Of a stretch of 64,000 nt of DNA, positions 4,752 through 62,562 are shown piece by piece (the stretch's first letter is position 1; every line of letters starts with the position of its first letter). The notes beneath the pieces were generated by a model that was not told where the DNA came from, did no database searches, and saw only the letters and a list, made by a program, of their open reading frames with translations. A program made the translations under genes and the position numbers. Source of the stretch: an uncultured Saprospiraceae bacterium (GTDB lineage: Bacteria; Bacteroidota; Bacteroidia; Chitinophagales; Saprospiraceae); contig CALFWO010000011.1 in the NCBI GenBank assembly GCA_937928045.1, positions 1-64,000 on the forward strand, in the 5' to 3' direction.

Positions 4752-7700
4752 ATGACATCTAAATCAACAATCTTAATTCTTAGATTTTTCGCTTTCTTCT
4801 TTTATCTTCTGCTTATAACAAGTTGTAATTCAGACAACATAGAGCAAGAAGTTAGTATCACTGGTCCCATTTTCAAAAAATTGAATGCATCAGAAAGCGG
4901 AATATCATTTAACAATGAAATAGTAGAAGACAATACCTATAATCATATCCTATTAGACGTAGTTTTCAATGGAGGTGGTGTGGCTGTTATAGACATAAAT
5001 AATGATGGGCTTCAAGATATTTTTTTCTCAGGAAACATGGTTAATGATCGTTTATATCTGAACAAGGGAAACTTAAAATTTCAAGATATAACTAAAACAT
5101 CCGGAATCATTCAAGGAGATTGGTCAACAGGAGTTACAGTGGCCGACGTAAATAATGATGGACTATTAGATCTATACGTAGGGAAATTCATTAAATCTGA
5201 CCCAGAAAAAAGGGCAAATCATCTATACATCAATAATGGCGATCTAAGTTTTACAGAAAGTGCTAAAAAATATGGAATAGCTGATACTGGTCATTGTACT
5301 GCTGTTAATTTCTTTGATTATGATAAAGATGGAGATATGGATCTTTATGTTGGCAACGAACCATTAGTAAGTCGAAGAGCTAAAAAAGAAATAAAAAGAA
5401 ATAAAGGTGACGAGTTAAAATATAGTGATCGATTGTTCAGAAATGAAAATAATGAAAAGTTTATTGATGTAACCAAAGAAGCTGGAATTCTAAATTACAA
5501 CTACACATTAAGTGCCACAGTAAGTGATCTGAACAATGATGGTTGGCTGGACATTTATGTTGCCTCTGATTATGAGGAACCTGATTATTACTATCAAAAT
5601 AATCAAGATGGAACTTTTACGAATGTTATTCATAAAGCAATGCGCCATATCAGCAATTTCACGATGGGAGTTGACCTAGCTGATTTTAATAATGATGGAT
5701 GGATGGATTTATATTCTGCTGATATGGCTCCAGCTGATAACTACCGATCAAAAGCTAATATGAGTGGGATGAATCCTGAAAGGTTTTGGAGTTTAGCAAA
5801 TAATGGATTTCACTATCAATATATGTTTAACAATCTTCAACTAAATAACGGTACTGGTACATTCAGCGAGATTGCTCAATTATCAGGCACAGCTCAAACT
5901 GATTGGAGTTGGGCAACGTTATTTGCAGATTTTGACAATGATGGAGATAAAGATTTATACGTAACCAATGGCCAACCCAAAGATACCAGAAACAAAGATT
6001 ACATCAATAGACGAACGGAGATTATAGATTCGATCAATAATGTCCATAAAAAGAACAGCAATTCATCAGGGATAAATTCTTTATTACTTACAGAATTAGC
6101 TCCATATGAAAAGCTAGCAAATTACATGTTTGTTAATCAAGGTGATTTAACTTTTGATGACGAGGCTAACAATTGGGGGCTGCTAGATAAAAGTTGGACA
6201 CAAGGTGCAGCCTACGCAGACTTTGACAACGATGGGGACATAGATATAGTTACGAACAACATTGATGATCCCGCTTTTTTGTACGAAAACAGAGCAACTC
6301 AAAAGAATAACAATAATTTTCTAAAAGTCAAACTACAAGGCAACCATGGTTCTAATATGCTTTCTCATGGCGCCAAAGTATGGATTTATATTAATGATGA
6401 AATGCAACTTCTAGAAGTTTCTACTAACAGAGGGTACATGTCAAGTAATGATCCCGTTCTTCACTTTGGATTAAAAGATGCAAAAGAAGTTGATAGACTT
6501 GTAGCCATTTGGCCAAATGGGAAAGGAGTTGAATTAAAAAATATAAAGGCAAATCAAACTTTAGAACTTTTCCAAAAAAATGGAAAAACTATGACATCGC
6601 CTGAAAGCTTAGTAAAAAAGAAAATATTCAAAGATATTGCGAGTGAAACTCAGCTGGGATATGTACATAAAGAAAATAAACACGACGATTTCAAGTCTGA
6701 AGTTTTGATTCCTCACAGGATGTCTCAACTGGGACCTACAGGAGCAACTGCTGATGTAAACGGTGATGGATTGGATGACATTTTCCTTGGAGGTGCTGCT
6801 GGACAATCAGCTGAATTATATTTACAAAACAAAGGAAATAAGTTTGTCAAAAATAATTCTCAACCTTGGCAAAAAGATAAAGCTTCTGAAGACCTCGACG
6901 CTTTATTTTTTGATGCTGACAATGATAATGATATTGATCTTTACGTGGTAAGCGGTGGCAATGAATTTCCTGAAGGAAGCAAGTTGTATCAGGATCGTTT
7001 ATACTTAAATGACGGCAAAGGAAATTTCCAAAAATCAACACTGCCTAAAATATCTTCAAGCGGAGGTGTAGCATCAGCAGGTGACTTTGACAACGACGGA
7101 GATTTAGATTTATTTATTGGAGGAAGACAAACACCAAACAAGTATGGTTTTGCTCCAAGAAGTTATTTATTAATCAATAAAGACGGAAAATTTATTGATC
7201 AAACAGAGGCAATAAGTCCAGAACTTAAAAGTCCAGGTATGGTATCTGATGCCATCTGGATGGACGTAGACAACGACGAAGACAATGACTTAGTTATGGT
7301 TGGAGAATGGATGCCAATTTCAATATTTATTAATGAAAATGGAAAGCTATCTAACCAAACCGACCAGATGGGTCTTGCTAATTCTACTGGTTGGTGGAAC
7401 AGAATTGAAACAGCTGATATTGACAATGATGGAGATCAAGATCTAATAGCAGGTAATCTGGGGTTAAATATAAAATTCAAAGCTTCAGAAGAAAAACCAT
7501 TTACGGCTAAAATTAAAGATTTTGATGAAAACGGATCTAATGATATTTACCTTGCTTACTATGGAACTGATGGCAATCAATATCCTGTAAGGGGAAGACA
7601 ATGTTCTTCTGAGCAAATGCCATTTATTAAAGAAAAATTTAAAACATATAATGAATTTGCGCTAGCTTCCTTTGATGAAGTTTTAGGTGACCTCGCTGAA

Positions 7701-8336: not shown

Positions 8337-11300
8337 CTAGTATCCGTTACTAACTTTCACCGGAATTTCCAATAAGTTCCCATGTTTGTCAACCATTTGG
8401 CTTTTCTTAACGGATAATACCTCAATTTCTTGGTTGTCAAACTCAACTTTGAATAGCTCTGTTGATACATCAAGCAAAACAGAATTATGATGAAATCCAA
8501 CAACTCTTAAAAGGCCATTTTCTGGATTGTAGTAATAATCCATAGTTAACAAATTATTCTGGGCAAAATATACGCTTACGTTCTCAAGATACTGCTCACA
8601 TTCAATTTCGAACATAAAGCCGAACGTGCGCGTCGGACGCCTAAGCTTAAAGATGTGATCATCTCTTATCAATTCGACATTATCCTTATTTCCATCTTCA
8701 ATTTCACTAGAGTTGGTATTGATCAATTCGTTAGACACCATAGATAAAGTAGGATCCGCATTGCCACTGATATCTCCAAGTTTAACACCAATAAAGCCTT
8801 TCTCCGTATTTCCAATTCCTAGGTTATTGATTTCATGGTATTCGGGAATAAAATCCAAAAAGGGATTATTAGGATTACTAAAAACGAAGTCATCTGGAAT
8901 CATTCTCCAAGAGTTAGAATTCGGAACAATGGAGTCAATTCTAAGGATGAGTTTCTGCATCAAGATCAAATCAAAAACACTTAAGCCATTGTCGCGATCT
9001 ACATCTCCTGCCAGTATTTGATATGGATTTGTAAGCGGAGTCAATCCAATTAGAGACCTACTTAATAGTACAATGTCTAAGACTGAAATTCCATCTTCGT
9101 CATTACCATCCTTGAAAGCTTCTAATACATAATTTTGACCAGATGATAGATTATCAAAGGAGAATTCGCCATTTATATTAGTCATATCCTGCACTCCGTT
9201 TAGTTCCATTTCAACCGCATTCACCGGACTACCAGACCAAATGTTTACGTTTCCTAAAATGGTTCCACTTGGACAATCTCCAGGGTTATTTTGGATCGTA
9301 ATATTGGTAAAACAACTGGCAGCATTTCCAGCCTCATCATATACTATTAATTCCACTTGGTTAACTCCAACATCTTCACAATTAAATACATTTGGAATCA
9401 AGTCAAAGACCAACATTGTTGAATCAGTACAATTATCAAAGCTTCCATTATTGATATGAGCAGGATCAACTGTCACCGAACCATTTGAATCTAAATTTAT
9501 TATCAAACCTGATTTACATACTGGCGAGGGAGACTTACCATCCAATACCGTCAAAGTGAAACTGTCAGTACTTTTATTTCCACAATTATCTTCGGCTTCA
9601 AATCCAATTAAATGAATGCCCACTGGATAGTTTCCTGAAGGGTTGGCTCCATAATTACTCGCAAAAATAGAATTATTGGTGATGCTAATACTCTCAGAAC
9701 AATCTGATGCAGATGCATGATTAATACTGAAAAATTCGGCTCCACAATTTTCATCAAACAAATAGACAGTTGTATCATTCGGAACTGATAAAATTGGATC
9801 AATATCATCAACAACTTGCAATATTTGTGATGCTTCCCAATAGCCTTCATCTGTTTGAGGATCATGGCTACACCATTCGTAAATCTCCCAGTGCCTATAA
9901 ACTACAAAACAGGCTGGAAAAGCCTGATAAGTAGTGTCATCAGTAAATCCTATATATAGGAATTCGCAATCCAAATTACCCACAATCGGCTCTCCGGTAA
10001 TTTCTGGTGAAAGATCTGGATTACAAACATTGGTGCTATAATTACCAGGAAAGGCAATTGTCAGTGTTGTCGTATCCTGCAATGTAATTATCTGCTGACA
10101 TTGCACCTCTACCCCACCAAGATCTCTTACTACCCAAGTACGGATCACTTCACCAACATTGCATGTATTTAAGCTAATTTGATCGGAAAAAAACATTGTA
10201 TCGACGGAGCAATTATCATAAACATTAGGGCTCCCGGTAATACTAATATTCATATAATCCTCTGTACAATTAAGCGTGATTGAATCTGGACAAGTGATCG
10301 TAGGGGGCAATAAATCAACCACCGTTACTTGCACATCACATTCATTAAAATTTCCAAAAAAATCGATAGCTCGCATTGTTACCAATACCGGACTATTTTC
10401 AACATCATCACAATTGAATATCACCTCTGAACTGTAATTTATCCCATCTCGACTTACTAATAATTCATCTAGAATACAATTATCATAAGTTCCAGCATCA
10501 AAACTACTTGCAGGCACATAGGCCATTCCATCGAAATTCAAACCTACTTGTAAAAAAGCCTTACAAATATTTTGCGGAGGAATTTCATCAGCCACGGTAA
10601 CCATTACAACACATGTAGAATTATTTCCGCATGCATCTGTAGCTGTATAAGTAACGGGATAAACTCCTAATGGAATATTTACAAATGGACCATACCCTGT
10701 TCCAAATTCCCATACAGGATTTATAGTAACGGTACTACAATCATCTGTTGCAGTTGTTGTTGGGAGATTTACTGTTGCCGTGCAAGTGTTTACTCCAGTA
10801 CTAATTGTTAAGTCTTGAGGACATTCCATAATTGGCGCTAAAGTATCTCGAACTTTAATGAACTGGACATGTGTATTTACATCTCCAGTACACCAATCTG
10901 CCAATGTCCAAGTTCTTAGAATTAAATATCCAGCACCACAAATATTCAAAGGCTGATCGGAAAAATCAGCCGCGAGGTCACAAAAATTAGTTGAGTTTAA
11001 AGCAAGTCCATCTATATTGGGAAAACCCGTCAGATTTAAATCTAACGGATCCGCATTGCAATCAATAGCTGGTAACTGAGTGTCATCTAAATTTGGTGGT
11101 AAAATTACATCTGATAAATACGATTTTTTAAGTCGAATAAATTGACTACATGTTCCTGTATTTCCAAATTCATCAACAGCTGTCCATCTTCTTTCAATTA
11201 GAGCATTTAAGGTATCTCCATTATCTGCAAACCCACAAGAATAATCTGAGACAATATCTACAAAAGATAAATCTTGAATAGATAATGCTGTGCAATTATC

Positions 11301-58989: not shown

Positions 58990-59664
58990 TTAAAGTCCAT
59001 AGAAAGAAAACCTCAGTGACAATCTATCCATTTCGTTTTTATCAATTGAATCACTAGGTACTCCTAAATATCTTTCTTGTTCGCTCAAGCCTTTAGTAAA
59101 TACCACCTCTGGTCTTAATACAAAATTTTTAAACGCAATCGCTACGCCTATCCCAGCCTCCAAAGAAATTTGAAAGGCGTTTTCATCGCTAACTAATGCT
59201 GTTGGATCATTTGTATCACTCGTCAAATCGTAACCAAAATTTCCACCAAGCATAAAGGTTGGACTTACTTTTTTAGCTAAATTTTCATAAATAATTCCGA
59301 AGGGAAATTCGACCAAAACATATTCTTTAATTCTCGAAAACTTTCGATCAAATGCACCTTCCAAGTCAAATATTACCTCCGTTTCTAAAAATGAAATTTT
59401 CGGATCAATCTTAAATCCGATTTTATCATTAAATCGATGTTGATAATTGATTCCTAAACCAAATCCAGGTTTACTTCTGTTTTCTACATTAGATATTGTC
59501 CCTCCAAATGTTGGAATAAATTCATTGGAAAGATTGATTCTAGCGAATGACATATTCGATTCTAATGAAATCCCAAAGCTGTTTATTTTTCGATTTAGTG
59601 TAAACTGAGCTAGAATTGAGTTTGAGATAAATAAGAGAATCACGCAAAAAGATATACTTTTCAT
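58990..59664 (-). CDS. PorT-like outer-membrane beta-barrel protein
   Basis: The 224-residue protein has a signal peptide (MKSISFCVILLFISNSILAQ) and eight or so predicted strands with the motif GFGLGINYQHRFNDKIGFKIDPKISF, typical of the outer-membrane beta-barrel (PorT-like) family of Bacteroidota. It ends in FSFYGL. Function is not assigned. Convergent with the histidine kinase. Confidence 0.8.
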   Translation of the reverse strand: MKSISFCVILLFISNSILAQFTLNRKINSFGISLESNMSFARINLSNEFIPTFGGTISNVENRSKPGFGLGINYQHRFNDKIGFKIDPKISFLETEVIFDLEGAFDRKFSRIKEYVLVEFPFGIIYENLAKKVSPTFMLGGNFGYDLTSDTNDPTALVSDENAFQISLEAGIGVAIAFKNFVLRPEVVFTKGLSEQERYLGVPSDSIDKNEMDRLSLRFSFYGL

Positions 59665-60022
59665 AAAAGTTGGTATTTAGTGAAGTATAATTTTCCTTAT
59701 GCGCAGCAATTTATTCCTGAATCTTATTGAAAAGATTCATTCTGAAAGTGTTTAAACTTTCTAAGATTTAAATACTTGATTTAGAATTGTAATTAGATTC
59801 GTTGCAGAGGACGTGGATAAAACGGAAGGAATATTGGATTAGTATGGTCTTAACATATATTGTTTACCAGTATTATTCCTGACGAATTCCTTTATTATCA
59901 GATTATCGTAACGTCAATAAAATTCAGTTTAAGGCAAAGTCCAAAAACTAGTAAGCGCCCCAACACCATTGCATTCAAATTTAGCTAACTTCATTCTTTT
60001 TCAAATTTATTTACTAAAAAAG
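59665..60022. other. Intergenic region before the structured RNA
   Basis: AT-rich and without credible coding frames. I see no clear promoter for the minus-strand barrel gene and no repeats here. Confidence 0.5.
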
Positions 60023-60054
60023 TTGCAATTTTAAAAAATGTGCCGTTATCTTTG
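60023..60054 (+). promoter_or_regulatory. Strong Bacteroidota-type promoter of the structured RNA
   Basis: TTG at 60023-60025 and TATCTTTG at 60047-60054 (perfect TAnnTTTG) are separated by 21 bp, the ideal -33/-7 arrangement. This is the best promoter in the window. Transcription would start near 60060. Confidence 0.8.
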
Positions 60055-60063
60055 CGTCAGATA

Positions 60064-60141
60064 TGAAAAATAATTTTTTAAATATTAGTTTTAAACGGAC
60101 ACCATTTTGTGTTCTAATTAGCGGGATTTTACTCGCCTAGT
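60064..60141 (+). other. Possible 25-codon leader peptide at the 5' end of the structured RNA
   Basis: ATG at 60064, only a few bases after the inferred transcription start, opens a frame of 25 codons (MKNNFLNISFKRTPFCVLIS and five hydrophobic residues) ending in TAG. It reads like a small membrane-inserting peptide, but the stretch also folds as a hairpin (GGACAC/GTGTTC), so it may be chance. Confidence 0.25.
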
Positions 60142-60147
60142 CTTCTC

Positions 60148-60205
60148 TTGCATTTCGCTCGCGTTGGCTAGTGCCAATGCAAATTTTCATTTTTTTGTTT
60201 TGGTT
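60148..60205 (+). promoter_or_regulatory. Possible attenuator hairpin near the 5' end of the structured RNA
   Basis: A compound hairpin, TTGCA ... TTGGC-TAGT-GCCAA-TGCAA (ending at about 60182), is followed by ATTTTCATTTTTTTG. It may cause partial termination after about 130 nt; the full transcript would then be the read-through product. Confidence 0.35.
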
Positions 60206-60328
60206 AAATTAGTGACTATTAATTCAATTTCGAATTAATTAACATTCAATACACTCTGGAATTCGTATTCTGACTTTTTAACGAATGAGGTGAAAAGTAA
60301 TGGGATTACTATATCCTAAATATAATTT

Positions 60329-60401
60329 TAGCCCATAGCTTAATCGGCAAAACATCGCATCTTAGATGTGTGGATTGTGGTTTCGACTCCTACTGGGTTA
60401 A
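60329..60401 (+). tRNA. tRNA-like domain 1 (UAG- or UUA-type loop, degenerate)
   Basis: A cloverleaf can be drawn: acceptor TAGCCCA/TGGGTTA (7 of 7 pairs with one G-U), T8-A9, D-arm GCTT/AAAC (one mismatch), D-loop with GG, anticodon arm CGCAT-CTTAGAT-GTGTG, and T-arm GTGGT-TTCGACT-CCTAC with a mismatch at the normally invariant 53-61 pair. No CCA is encoded (CAA follows). The mismatches suggest a tRNA mimic inside the large RNA rather than a working tRNA. Confidence 0.5.
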
Positions 60402-60881
60402 CAAATGATTGTATATGAAGCAATCAACATGTTCTTTGACATTTTCACTCACTTCGGTGAGTGCATAAATATAGGCAGCTTATTGTCTAGGGCTTGACCC
60501 GAAAATAAACTTGGCAACAAGTATAAATCCGGAAAAGGAAATCACCTTTATTGGAGACTAACTTCGGTTAGTTTAAGTAAGCAAGCAACTAACAGTTGAT
60601 ATCCTAATATGTAGTGTCAAGCGATGAGCATATTGGATAGCACTATCTCAGCAGTGGAACTGAGATTGAGGTGGAGACATCAATAGAGAAAGTTGTAGAA
60701 TGCTGGTTGACATAAATCTATTCAATTTATTTCGGCTGGATTCAGTATCAAGGATAGGTGTCCAGCAATGGATCGTTATCCTGAAGTACGGTGAGTCGGA
60801 AGGCTTGCAAAAAGGAGTGAGGTATTCTGAGGGCTAAAATCTTCGGAGCCGCTTTCGAGACACTTCTTTTAAAATCCGCTA

Positions 60882-60953
60882 GTACGATTAGCTCATTGGT
60901 AGAGCATCTGACTTAGGATCGGAGTGTGCTGGGTTCGATTCCCAGATCAAACT
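60882..60953 (+). tRNA. tRNA-like domain 2 (anticodon UAG, short variable loop)
   Basis: The cloverleaf is good: D-arm GCTC/GAGC with GG in the loop, anticodon arm TCTGA-CTTAGGA-TCGGA, 5-nt variable loop, and T-arm CTGGG-TTCGATT-CCCAG (all pairs). The acceptor GTACGAT/ATCAAAC has two adjacent A-A/C-A mismatches, but pairing continues beyond position 1 (TA/TA). No CCA is encoded. Anticodon UAG would mean leucine, yet leucine tRNAs need a long variable arm. It is enclosed by the outer 8-bp helix 60854-60861/60964-60971, so it is a domain of the large RNA. Confidence 0.6.
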
Positions 60954-61305
60954 AAAAGCAAAAGTCTCGAACGTAGAAAAGTAGTAATTGCCTAAACCCA
61001 TTGCAAAATATGGGCTGAAGAATACCGCAAGTATTTTTCAGGTGGTGTACATTCGTTTAGCCGGCTTCAAGGCATGCCTTGGGGAACGCTAATTAAAAGC
61101 TCGGGGATCAACCCCGCAATGTTGAAAACATTGTTGCAAAGCGCAACCGTCGAGTTGCTATGCAAACCAAGTCTAAGATGCCGATCATTTTCTATGTAGT
61201 TTTCTGGCATTGAACCTTTACTATCAAGGCGCAAGTTGAGATAGTGGATAACTGAGGAACCTTGGGCCCGCAAGCTTAAGTATAATCTCAGGAAAGGAGG
61301 TTTGG

Positions 61306-61336
61306 AAAGTGTGTAATCCGAAGCACTTTTTTTTTT
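61306..61336 (+). terminator. Strong intrinsic terminator of the structured RNA
   Basis: The stem AAAGTG (61306-61311) with CACTTT (61324-61329) runs into ten consecutive T at 61327-61336. The stop codon of the convergent minus-strand gene overlaps the end of the T-run. Confidence 0.85.
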
Positions 61337-61694
61337 AAAAACTTTTTGAATGATTACTAAACAACAACGCGCCTTGCAAGAGAATAATAAATACTGCAAT
61401 AATTGGTGCGATACTATAAAACAAAAAAGATAGGCCTGGTTCCATTATTGGTTGATTTGAACTTGGAACGGACCACTGAAGGTTATAGACAATATAAATT
61501 AATACCGCAACAGCTGATATAGAAAATCCAATAAGTGCTCTTTTCTTCAGCTTTCTCAATTCCATGGAGCGGTCTTTTTGAACGGTAATCAACTTTAATA
61601 TATCATCCTCAATGTTGAGATTTCTTCCTTCTTCGTCAAAACTCGCTTGGAGCATTTGGCGAATTTTTAAGTCTTCTTGATGCTGATCTTCCAT
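61335..61694 (-). CDS. Small membrane protein downstream of ECF sigma factor, possible anti-sigma
   Basis: From the ATG at 61694 the product is 119 residues; a TTG at 61700 is also open. The N-terminal cytosolic part (about 55 residues, acidic and helical) contains MLQASFDEEGRNLNIEDDILKLIT. Two membrane helices follow at about 55-72 and 90-110. It comes directly after the sigma factor gene (the stop at 61701 abuts it), the usual place for an anti-sigma factor, and the topology fits. No zinc-binding HxxxCxxC motif is present. I do not recognise the family. Confidence 0.75.
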   Translation of the reverse strand: MEDQHQEDLKIRQMLQASFDEEGRNLNIEDDILKLITVQKDRSMELRKLKKRALIGFSISAVAVLIYIVYNLQWSVPSSNQPIMEPGLSFLFYSIAPIIAVFIILLQGALLFSNHSKSF

Positions 61695-61700
61695 AATCAA

Positions 61701-62252
61701 TCAATTATTTTCTAAATATATTTTCATAAAACTCTTCCGAGCTCGATACAACAATATCTTAATATTGCTCTTGGAGAATCCAGTAATGTCCTCCATTTCT
61801 CTTAAAGCGTACTCGTGCAAATAGTGCAACTTTAAAACAAGCGCTTCTTTGGGTTTCATATCCTCCAAGGCTTTTTGAATGGCCGCTCTTTTTTCACCCA
61901 AATCAATAATCACAATCGCGTCATTAAATGCTGATCCATATTCCTGATGGTCATCTTCAATTGCAGTGTAGCTCCCCCATTTTTTGTTTTTTCTAATAAA
62001 TTGAAGCGACTCATTCACAACAATTTTATATAGCCAAGTTGAAAACTTTGCATCTCCTTTAAAGCTCTTCAGCGCTTTGTAAGCTTGTATAAAAGCATTT
62101 TGAACGATGTCTTTGGTATCTACATCATTTTTCACCATACTAAAAGCAATAGAATACGCCATCTCTTGATGCTCACGCACCAAGTGGCGAAAGACCTCAG
62201 TTTCTCCATCCAATACACGGCTGACGTGTTTGCCATCTAGTTCGGAACCCAA
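61701..62252 (-). CDS. ECF-type RNA polymerase sigma-70 factor
   Basis: The 183-residue protein has sigma region 2 at about 18-85 (VREHQEMAYSIAFSMVKND, DIVQNAFIQAYKALKSFKGDAKFSTWLYKIVVNES) and region 4 at about 120-178 (LEDMKPKEALVLKLHYLHEYALREMEDITGFSKSNIKILLYRARKSF). The only start that keeps region 2 intact is a TTG at 62252, one base after the stop of the upstream gene, so translation is coupled. It is the middle gene of a three-gene operon between two membrane proteins. The signal it answers is unknown. Confidence 0.93.
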   Translation of the reverse strand: MGSELDGKHVSRVLDGETEVFRHLVREHQEMAYSIAFSMVKNDVDTKDIVQNAFIQAYKALKSFKGDAKFSTWLYKIVVNESLQFIRKNKKWGSYTAIEDDHQEYGSAFNDAIVIIDLGEKRAAIQKALEDMKPKEALVLKLHYLHEYALREMEDITGFSKSNIKILLYRARKSFMKIYLENN

Positions 62253-62253
62253 C

Positions 62254-62562
62254 TTATTTCCTATTGTTTAGAAAATGGGATACTACTAATCCCATGCCTC
62301 CAAAAAGCAGTAAAAATCCTGGAATAAAAATATAGTCCGGCCAATTGAAAGCCTTTGATGTTATATATGCCGTAAACAATCCTAAGGCCAAAAAAATAAG
62401 AAAAAGTCCAAAACTTCTTAGTGCGTTGGTCTTCGTATTAGCTTCGGGCATTCCATGCTCTATTCTTGTCATTCGCTCGACATGTCTTAGTTTAAGCAAG
62501 TAAAAAAAGGTGAATCCGCACATTATAATAAAGGCCACCATAGGTATTACTGGTCCAGTCAT
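62254..62562 (-). CDS. Small membrane protein, DUF6249-like
   Basis: The 102-residue protein has three membrane helices: about 5-22, 50-68 and 76-94. A short charged cytosolic loop carries RHVERMTRIEHGMPE. It resembles small membrane proteins (DUF6249 type) found beside ECF sigma genes in Bacteroidota; this assignment is from memory of the motif. First gene of the sigma factor operon. Confidence 0.75.
   Translation of the reverse strand: MTGPVIPMVAFIIMCGFTFFYLLKLRHVERMTRIEHGMPEANTKTNALRSFGLFLIFLALGLFTAYITSKAFNWPDYIFIPGFLLLFGGMGLVVSHFLNNRK

Follow-up and report, generated by a model that had tools for sequence, protein, structure and literature searches.

A solitary chromosomal GOLLD RNA gene in a Saprospiraceae bacterium, with a boxA and a linker tRNA whose acceptor stem is incomplete

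GOLLD RNAs are known mostly from phages, and the available text of the cage study (PMC12286853) describes them as forming a hollow RNA cage, a 14-mer, with the linker inside the lumen and with tRNAs sometimes present in that linker. According to the same text, GOLLD binds ribosomes in pull-down experiments, the cages are without known function, and the env-38 GOLLD is located downstream of a Met-tRNA. A mycobacterial GOLLD carries a pseudo-tRNA inside, the expression of which was not seen, as far as the available part of PMC6582537 reports. ROOL is likewise a large phage cage RNA found near tRNAs (available text of PMC12286853).

Exploring a window of 64,000 nucleotides, by which we mean the whole stretch analysed (positions 1 to 64,000 of contig CALFWO010000011.1 from an uncultured Saprospiraceae bacterium), we found that positions 60023-61336 are a gene for a long structured RNA. 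Its identity as a true GOLLD, here in a solitary chromosomal setting, is nearly certain. The locus resembles RF02032 and the env-38 GOLLD in its full 3' domain, its 5' domain of the ~360-400-nt class, its linker within the 3' domain, and its tRNAs, one just before the 5' domain and one in the linker. Unlike these, the window copy is solitary in the chromosome with neither tRNA array nor phage genes, carries a boxA, scores below the family threshold and has a degraded linker acceptor stem. The GOLLDs of mycobacteria and mycobacteriophages (L240-L242; PMC6582537, available part) likewise show a tRNA before the 5' domain and a pseudo-tRNA in the linker, but they lack a boxA of the Bacteroidota form and lie in a tRNA array, and in Bongo the 5' domain begins with GGGGCATGGCCCATAAG a few nucleotides past the tRNA. 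What is new is a solitary chromosomal GOLLD variant with a boxA and a linker tRNA with an incomplete acceptor stem. An earlier note on this DNA, made from the letters alone, had described a 1.27-kb ornate RNA with its own promoter and terminator; the two tRNA-like units, the boxA and the degraded linker acceptor stem go beyond it.

Identity and structure of the RNA

The elements of 60023-61336 follow one another in the order promoter motif, leader, tRNA-like unit, boxA, 5' domain, 3' domain and terminal hairpin with T10, and the second tRNA-like unit lies within the 3' domain:

60023-60054, plus strand: putative Bacteroidota-type promoter TTG-N21-TATCTTTG (sequence; same motif in locus L004)
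60137-60186, plus strand: conserved leader block CTAGTCTTCTCTTG...GCGTTGGCTAGTGCCAATGCAA, common to the window and L004 only
60329-60402, plus strand: 5' tRNA-like unit, called tRNA-Leu(UAG) (ARAGORN; Rfam, 35.1 bits; acceptor stem)
60431-60442, plus strand: boxA GTTCTTTGACAT, 28 nt after the 5' tRNA and like the boxA of rRNA
60446-60809, plus strand: GOLLD 5' domain (covariation in nine sequences; the window copy retains 98 of 103 pairs)
60810-61326, plus strand: GOLLD 3' domain (RF02032 matched over its full length; the window copy retains 123 of 132 pairs)
60881-60954, plus strand: linker tRNA-like unit, called tRNA-Leu(UAG) (ARAGORN; Rfam; covariation)
61307-61336, plus strand: terminal GOLLD hairpin with T10, an intrinsic terminator (sequence; covariation of the last helix)

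An Rfam search aligned positions 1-416 of the 416 of RF02032 (GOLLD) to 60810-61326 with 127.4 bits and an E value of 1.7e-34, and non-standard pairs were few in this alignment. The score falls short of the gathering score of the family, 150, which is a curation cut-off and no biological trait, so that a search at the gathering threshold misses the GOLLD of the window; at the default Rfam threshold only two tRNAs were reported from the locus. The modest score may be due in part to the tRNA inserted in the linker. The earlier note had left the choice between a chromosomal member of the GOLLD/ROOL group and a new class, and had proposed covariance models of GOLLD, ROOL, OLE and HEARO as a check. 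The full-length match settles this for GOLLD, an assignment we hold with very high confidence, and the other three identities are ruled out, as ROOL, OLE and HEARO were absent from the seven Rfam matches obtained at E up to 5 in 59000-62500.

The 5' domain extends over 364 nt from 60446, is separate from the 3' domain and less conserved, and by analogy with the published cage would correspond to its cap domain (PMC12286853). The GOLLD body proper begins near 60446; the earlier note had counted a leader of 270 nt in with the ornate RNA. Plus-strand ORFs inside the span reach at most 45 codons (60700-60837), in agreement with the statement that no plus-strand frame reaches 60 codons. On the minus strand, a TTG-start ORF of 110 aa (61067-61399) runs antisense to the GOLLD 3' end and probably arose by chance. 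At the 3' end the T10 (61327-61336) follows directly after the hairpin AAGTG...CACTT, as had been noted; in this last GOLLD helix, helix 23 of the 3' domain, two of four pairs changed on both sides and 85.7% of cells were paired.

The earlier note had also asked for a covariation test. Both domains were aligned across nine of the 17 Saprospiraceae loci described below, the other eight being excluded because they are more distant. Changes on both sides were found in 64 of 103 pairs of the 5' domain (31.1 in shuffles, sd 3.2) and in 77 of 133 pairs of the 3' domain (41.2, sd 3.5), and none of 500 shuffles reached the observed covariation. Slid controls gave 16-24 and 12-24 pairs, respectively, a comparison biased in favour of the structures since these were drawn from the same alignments. 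In each domain 95.8% of cells were paired. The alignments yielded 39 helices, 16 in the 5' domain and 23 in the 3' domain, three of the latter belonging to the linker tRNA, and in 37 of the 39 one or more pairs changed on both sides. Together with the folding of 60443-61340 (z = -5.8 against 20 shuffles), this bears out the description of a richly structured RNA.

Promoter, leader and boxA

The motif TTG-N21-TATCTTTG at 60023-60054, which we take to be a promoter of the Bacteroidota type, is present where the earlier note had placed it. That it is the promoter of this gene gains from its recurrence at a similar distance in L004, a Saprospiraceae locus of another genus: TTG-N21-TANCTTTG starts at -787 from the 3' domain in the window and at -782 in L004. 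The motif alone is weak, with 19 matches in the window against 11 expected by shuffling, and it was absent from the remaining 15 of the 17 loci. The two loci also share the leader block CTAGTCTTCTCTTG...GCGTTGGCTRGTGCCAATGCAA (window 60137-60186; L004 835-875) although their surroundings have diverged. Among 271 loci this block was found, besides the window, in L004 only (L018 and L020 repeat these two places), and viral contigs gave no match. In both loci it contains a terminator-like hairpin of eight pairs (60161-60180 in the window) followed by a T-rich stretch; attenuation and termination of a separate small RNA are possible roles. Given this hairpin between promoter and tRNA, the single 1.27-kb transcript stays putative. 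It is conceivable, if rather doubtful, that transcription from the 60023 promoter yields a separate small RNA, terminated at the hairpin (60161-60200), and that GOLLD is transcribed from another promoter next to the tRNA. The T-rich tail of the hairpin at 60161 fits such a small RNA, as does the leader block, which is closer to L004 than the downstream sequence is; against it, 3 nt separate the stem from the start of the T-rich stretch, and 60055-60329 contains no further plus-strand TTG-N17-24-TANNTTTG.

The boxA of the window follows the 5' tRNA and precedes the 5' domain; tRNA and boxA come in the same order in the rRNA spacer. In most loci the 5' tRNA is followed by G[T/A/C]TC[T/A]TTGA, and we fixed [GAT][ACT]TC[TA]TTGA as the Bacteroidota form, a pattern written down after inspecting the same 17 loci. 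Fourteen of them have it upstream of the 5' domain, 13 with an upstream tRNA call and one (L015) without, and it is missing in L008, L009 and L016. Twelve loci carried it within -480 to -330 against 0.2 expected by mononucleotide shuffling; in L003 (-487) and L012 (-620) it lay outside this interval. Within 60 nt after a tRNA, the pattern was found for 11 of 13 5' tRNAs, 3 of 78 other array tRNAs and none of 12 linker tRNAs. One of the three array cases is itself the 5' tRNA of a second GOLLD in genome G035, and with this tRNA left out of the 78 the difference between 5' and array tRNAs has a Fisher p of 1.4e-10. Identity was 94% over the nine boxA columns and 63% over the following 41 scored columns.

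For comparison with rRNA we used five Bacteroidota operons hand-picked from plasmid records, which are not the window's own (a 16S match was obtained in 0 of 11 genomes). All five carried the pattern in the spacer downstream of 16S and four of them in the 16S leader. The exact 12-mer GTTCTTTGACAT occurs in two of the spacers (L152 and L155), while L153 and L154 differ from it by one base and L151 by two. In the three operons with a spacer tRNA called by ARAGORN, tRNA-Ala is separated from boxA by 26, 31 and 23 nt, compared with 28 nt in the window. The locus is built like the Bacteroidota rRNA spacer (tRNA-Ile/Ala, boxA, 23S), with a tRNA, 23-31 nt, a boxA of the GTTCTTTGACAT type and a long structured RNA, except that GOLLD stands in place of 23S and that the 5' tRNAs are Leu, Met, His, Lys, Pro, Gln and one Ile. 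These identities make it unlikely that tRNA and boxA were taken over together, as one unit, from an rRNA spacer.

Among other viral or phage GOLLD candidates the pattern occurred in 2 of 25 (23 distinct; two more were too short upstream), boxA forms of other phyla being looked for by eye only. The two, L057 and L073, are near-identical viral contigs with a strong GOLLD (295 bits), a promoter resembling those of Bacteroidota and, as far as could be seen, no upstream tRNA. A universal GOLLD element is therefore ruled out; its absence from 3 of 17 loci and 23 of 25 other candidates makes boxA a lineage trait. Weak boxA-like stretches that do not fit the pattern precede the 5' domain in two viral GOLLDs, L104 (TGATCATTCAAAACTGAAC) and L145 (TTGTTCTTACACAGTTGAATA).

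In E. coli, the boxA of rRNA is bound by NusB and S10, which are considered to act against Rho, according to the available parts of PMC4807359 and PMC10250234. Judging from sequence match and position, boxA is probably in use on GOLLD as well. We regard it as improbable that the motif is a coincidence or a structural element of GOLLD with no role in antitermination. A chance origin would suit a motif that has a short core, is set in AT-rich DNA, was picked out by eye in the very loci in which it was counted and is missing from the loci and candidates named above. It does not suit the 12-nt identity to the boxA in the rRNA spacers of two records, at the same place after a tRNA, the preference for 5' tRNAs over other tRNAs, or the presence of the motif in L057 and L073 with no tRNA in sight; and boxA lies outside every predicted helix. 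Our literature search found no paper joining GOLLD to Saprospiraceae; papers matching GOLLD and boxA were, going by their titles, all on plant physiology, with the letters probably starting some other word, and those matching GOLLD and Bacteroid were by title not on GOLLD RNA, none of which proves absence; the main text of PMC12286853 does not mention boxA, antitermination, NusB, acceptor or Saprospir.

The linker tRNA

The 5' unit lacks a long variable arm, and has an acceptor stem of seven out of seven pairs and, by eye, a C-A mismatch in the D-stem. The linker unit, with an Rfam tRNA score of 51 bits, has intact D, anticodon and T arms and an acceptor stem of five out of seven pairs with a stability of -0.2 kcal/mol. 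In the eight of nine aligned loci having this unit, 100% of cells in the D, anticodon and T stems were paired, with compensatory changes. We scored acceptor stems in their best register, with mean duplex energies and with identical sequences counted once. Among the ARAGORN-called linkers of Saprospiraceae, window included, a seven-pair stem was present in 1 of 12 (L003; mean of the set -1.2 kcal/mol), compared with 70 of 78 array tRNAs (-8.2) and 11 of 13 5' tRNAs (-8.0 kcal/mol) at Saprospiraceae loci. In phage and viral GOLLDs it was present in none of ten linkers (-4.5 kcal/mol), several of which are closely related and so represent fewer independent events, compared with 101 of 137 other tRNAs (-8.6) and 7 of 8 5' tRNAs (-7.7 kcal/mol) of these records. 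The weakening is milder in the phage and viral set than in Saprospiraceae, and the stems there are never complete. This contrast between the acceptor stems of linker and 5' tRNAs across many loci is new here.

ARAGORN called no linker tRNA in five of the 17 loci (L004, L007, L008, L012 and L017); in the alignment a tRNA shape is visible in the linkers of L004 and L017 and none in that of L007. Linker anticodons vary widely between loci. Array tRNAs that are called Leu, measure 72-75 nt and have no long variable arm, like the units of the window, were seen in L002, L005, L012 and L013.

The linker acceptor arm looks too weak for the unit to function as a tRNA. On the simplest view the 5' tRNA undergoes processing and the linker unit is kept as a tRNA-shaped part; we consider it quite likely that the linker tRNA is retained in the RNA. 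That it is instead excised and used in translation would agree with its Rfam score and with its canonical D, anticodon and T arms and their compensatory changes. This is very unlikely, given the near-zero stability of the window stem, the incomplete stems of 11 of 12 Saprospiraceae and all ten phage or viral linkers, and a Leu call without a long variable arm; expression of the Mycobacterium counterpart, too, was not seen according to the available part of PMC6582537.

Distribution, setting and possible role

GOLLD was found in 14 of 150 Saprospiraceae genomes and in 6 of 60 relatives, the window's own included in both counts. Three genomes have two copies, giving 17 Saprospiraceae loci. RF02032 scores reach 150-204 bits in five loci, and 5 of the 14 positive genomes lie above the gathering threshold, so that the Rfam threshold would miss the other nine. 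Order-wide, 3 of 198 genomes were positive, all three Saprospiraceae, and phylum-wide 1 of 198, the window's own; searches over 40 genomes use stricter filters that lose weak matches, and the order and phylum draws overlap. A first viral pattern was too loose, with GOLLD in 1 of the 50 loci given to RF02032, of 80 among the matches listed. The viral and phage candidates used above were picked by motif, and all 11 that were given to Rfam, plus L150, proved to be GOLLD over the cut-off. In a pattern scan of genomes 3 of 64 stretches passed the motif filter, which may have dropped other GOLLDs: L204, the same place as L004, is GOLLD, and L157 and L192 look by eye like rpsD.

Three cases stand apart. 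The best-scoring Saprospiraceae GOLLD (L008 in G146, 204 bits) has neither tRNA call nor boxA and carries TATCTTTG shortly upstream of its 5' domain. Contig C44 of G035 holds, within a single tRNA array and separated by about 1.7 kb, two GOLLDs of two subtypes (L002 and L007), both with a boxA. L009, on the single 7.5-Mb contig of G087, is a truncated chromosomal copy that has kept the 3' domain and linker tRNA and lost the 5' domain, in place of which a 365-codon ORF ends 87 nt before the 3' domain.

The usual setting of GOLLD, in phages or prophages and near tRNA islands, is not obligatory; 10 of the 17 loci sit among several other tRNA genes, and the window does not. Over the 64 kb of the window and the next 16 kb (80 kb), ARAGORN found only the two tRNA-like units of the locus itself, and likewise only their own units over ~20 kb each at L004, L006 and L009; no array is in view at L015 (4-kb contig) and L008 (3.1-kb locus). 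Pfam assigned no phage family to 22 proteins beside solitary copies (10 at the window, 10 near L004, L006 and L009, and 2 near L015), apart from a marginal P-loop match of a UvrA-like ATPase near L009 to Viral_helicase1 (E 0.00095). At the window this is in keeping with the earlier remark that no phage gene is in view. Between the solitary neighbourhoods, BLASTP (E up to 1e-8) gave three weak inter-genome matches of 22-28% identity, among them one that links a TonB-receptor-like protein of the window to one near L004 (28%) and one between the surroundings of L004 and L006 (27%). Domestication at one conserved chromosomal place is ruled out, since the neighbourhoods share nothing beyond these. 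In an empty-site test, the flanking sigma-factor gene was not found in the two other genomes of the genus.

Two contigs point to mobile elements. That of L016 (L028), which is phage-like and bears tRNA genes, encodes a phage-like DNA ligase, RtcB (5127-6353) and ribonucleotide reductase, and that of L013 (L023) a tyrosine integrase, Tpt1/KptA (9388-9933) and a Schlafen AlbA_2 protein. The tRNA repair genes fit a role in tRNA damage, on the basis of these two contigs. Eleven proteins beside the arrays of L003, L005 and L011 (contigs L024, L026 and L025) belong to chromosomal-type families or to none. The window GOLLD could be a passive relic of a phage or mobile tRNA array, kept through recent arrival rather than use, a possibility to which we give limited weight. 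It draws on the loci in arrays, the gene content of the L016 and L013 contigs, the lack of shared neighbours among solitary copies beyond the weak matches, and the loss of the 5' domain in L009. A relic is hard to reconcile with nearly all pairs being kept in the window copy and with a promoter and leader block shared at the same spacing with another genus; none of the ten neighbouring window proteins has a phage family, by Pfam only.

The explanation we favour as a whole, and hold to be reasonably probable, is a solitary Saprospiraceae GOLLD gene that is antiterminated by boxA and yields a tRNA-bearing cage. Its source would be a mobile tRNA-array element that left the gene behind or from which the gene was co-opted. 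Host RNA polymerase would read promoter, leader, 5' tRNA, boxA, 5' domain, 3' domain and terminator. The boxA may recruit NusB-S10 as on rRNA, as sequence match and position suggest, and the 0.9-kb untranslated RNA would thereby escape Rho and fold during transcription. The usual tRNA enzymes would excise the intact 5' tRNA and free the GOLLD 5' end, while the linker tRNA, its acceptor stem weakened, would escape excision and stay in the RNA. By analogy with the published structure, the window RNA is likely to assemble as a GOLLD 14-mer cage, with up to 14 tRNA-shaped linkers pointing toward the lumen.

As to what the cage does, its most likely role would be to trap tRNA-binding proteins or ribosomes through the tRNA bodies. 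A decoy or trap for tRNA-binding proteins is nonetheless a tentative idea that we think unlikely, and the varied linker anticodons count against a decoy for one enzyme. More speculative still, and improbable, is that Saprospiraceae took over a phage RNA nanocage, made by rRNA-like antitermination, in which up to 14 uncharged tRNA mimics trap tRNA-cutting toxins or translation factors. If true, the trap reading would make GOLLD a tRNA-mimic trap in general, which fits the presence of RtcB and Tpt1/KptA beside two GOLLD copies.

The incomplete acceptor stem of the linker, in Saprospiraceae and in phage records, suggests that this tRNA is kept as a shape and not for translation. For the making of a long untranslated RNA, the boxA suggests a route, and it links GOLLD to the rRNA machinery. 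With a solitary chromosomal copy, knock-outs would be possible without a phage cycle.
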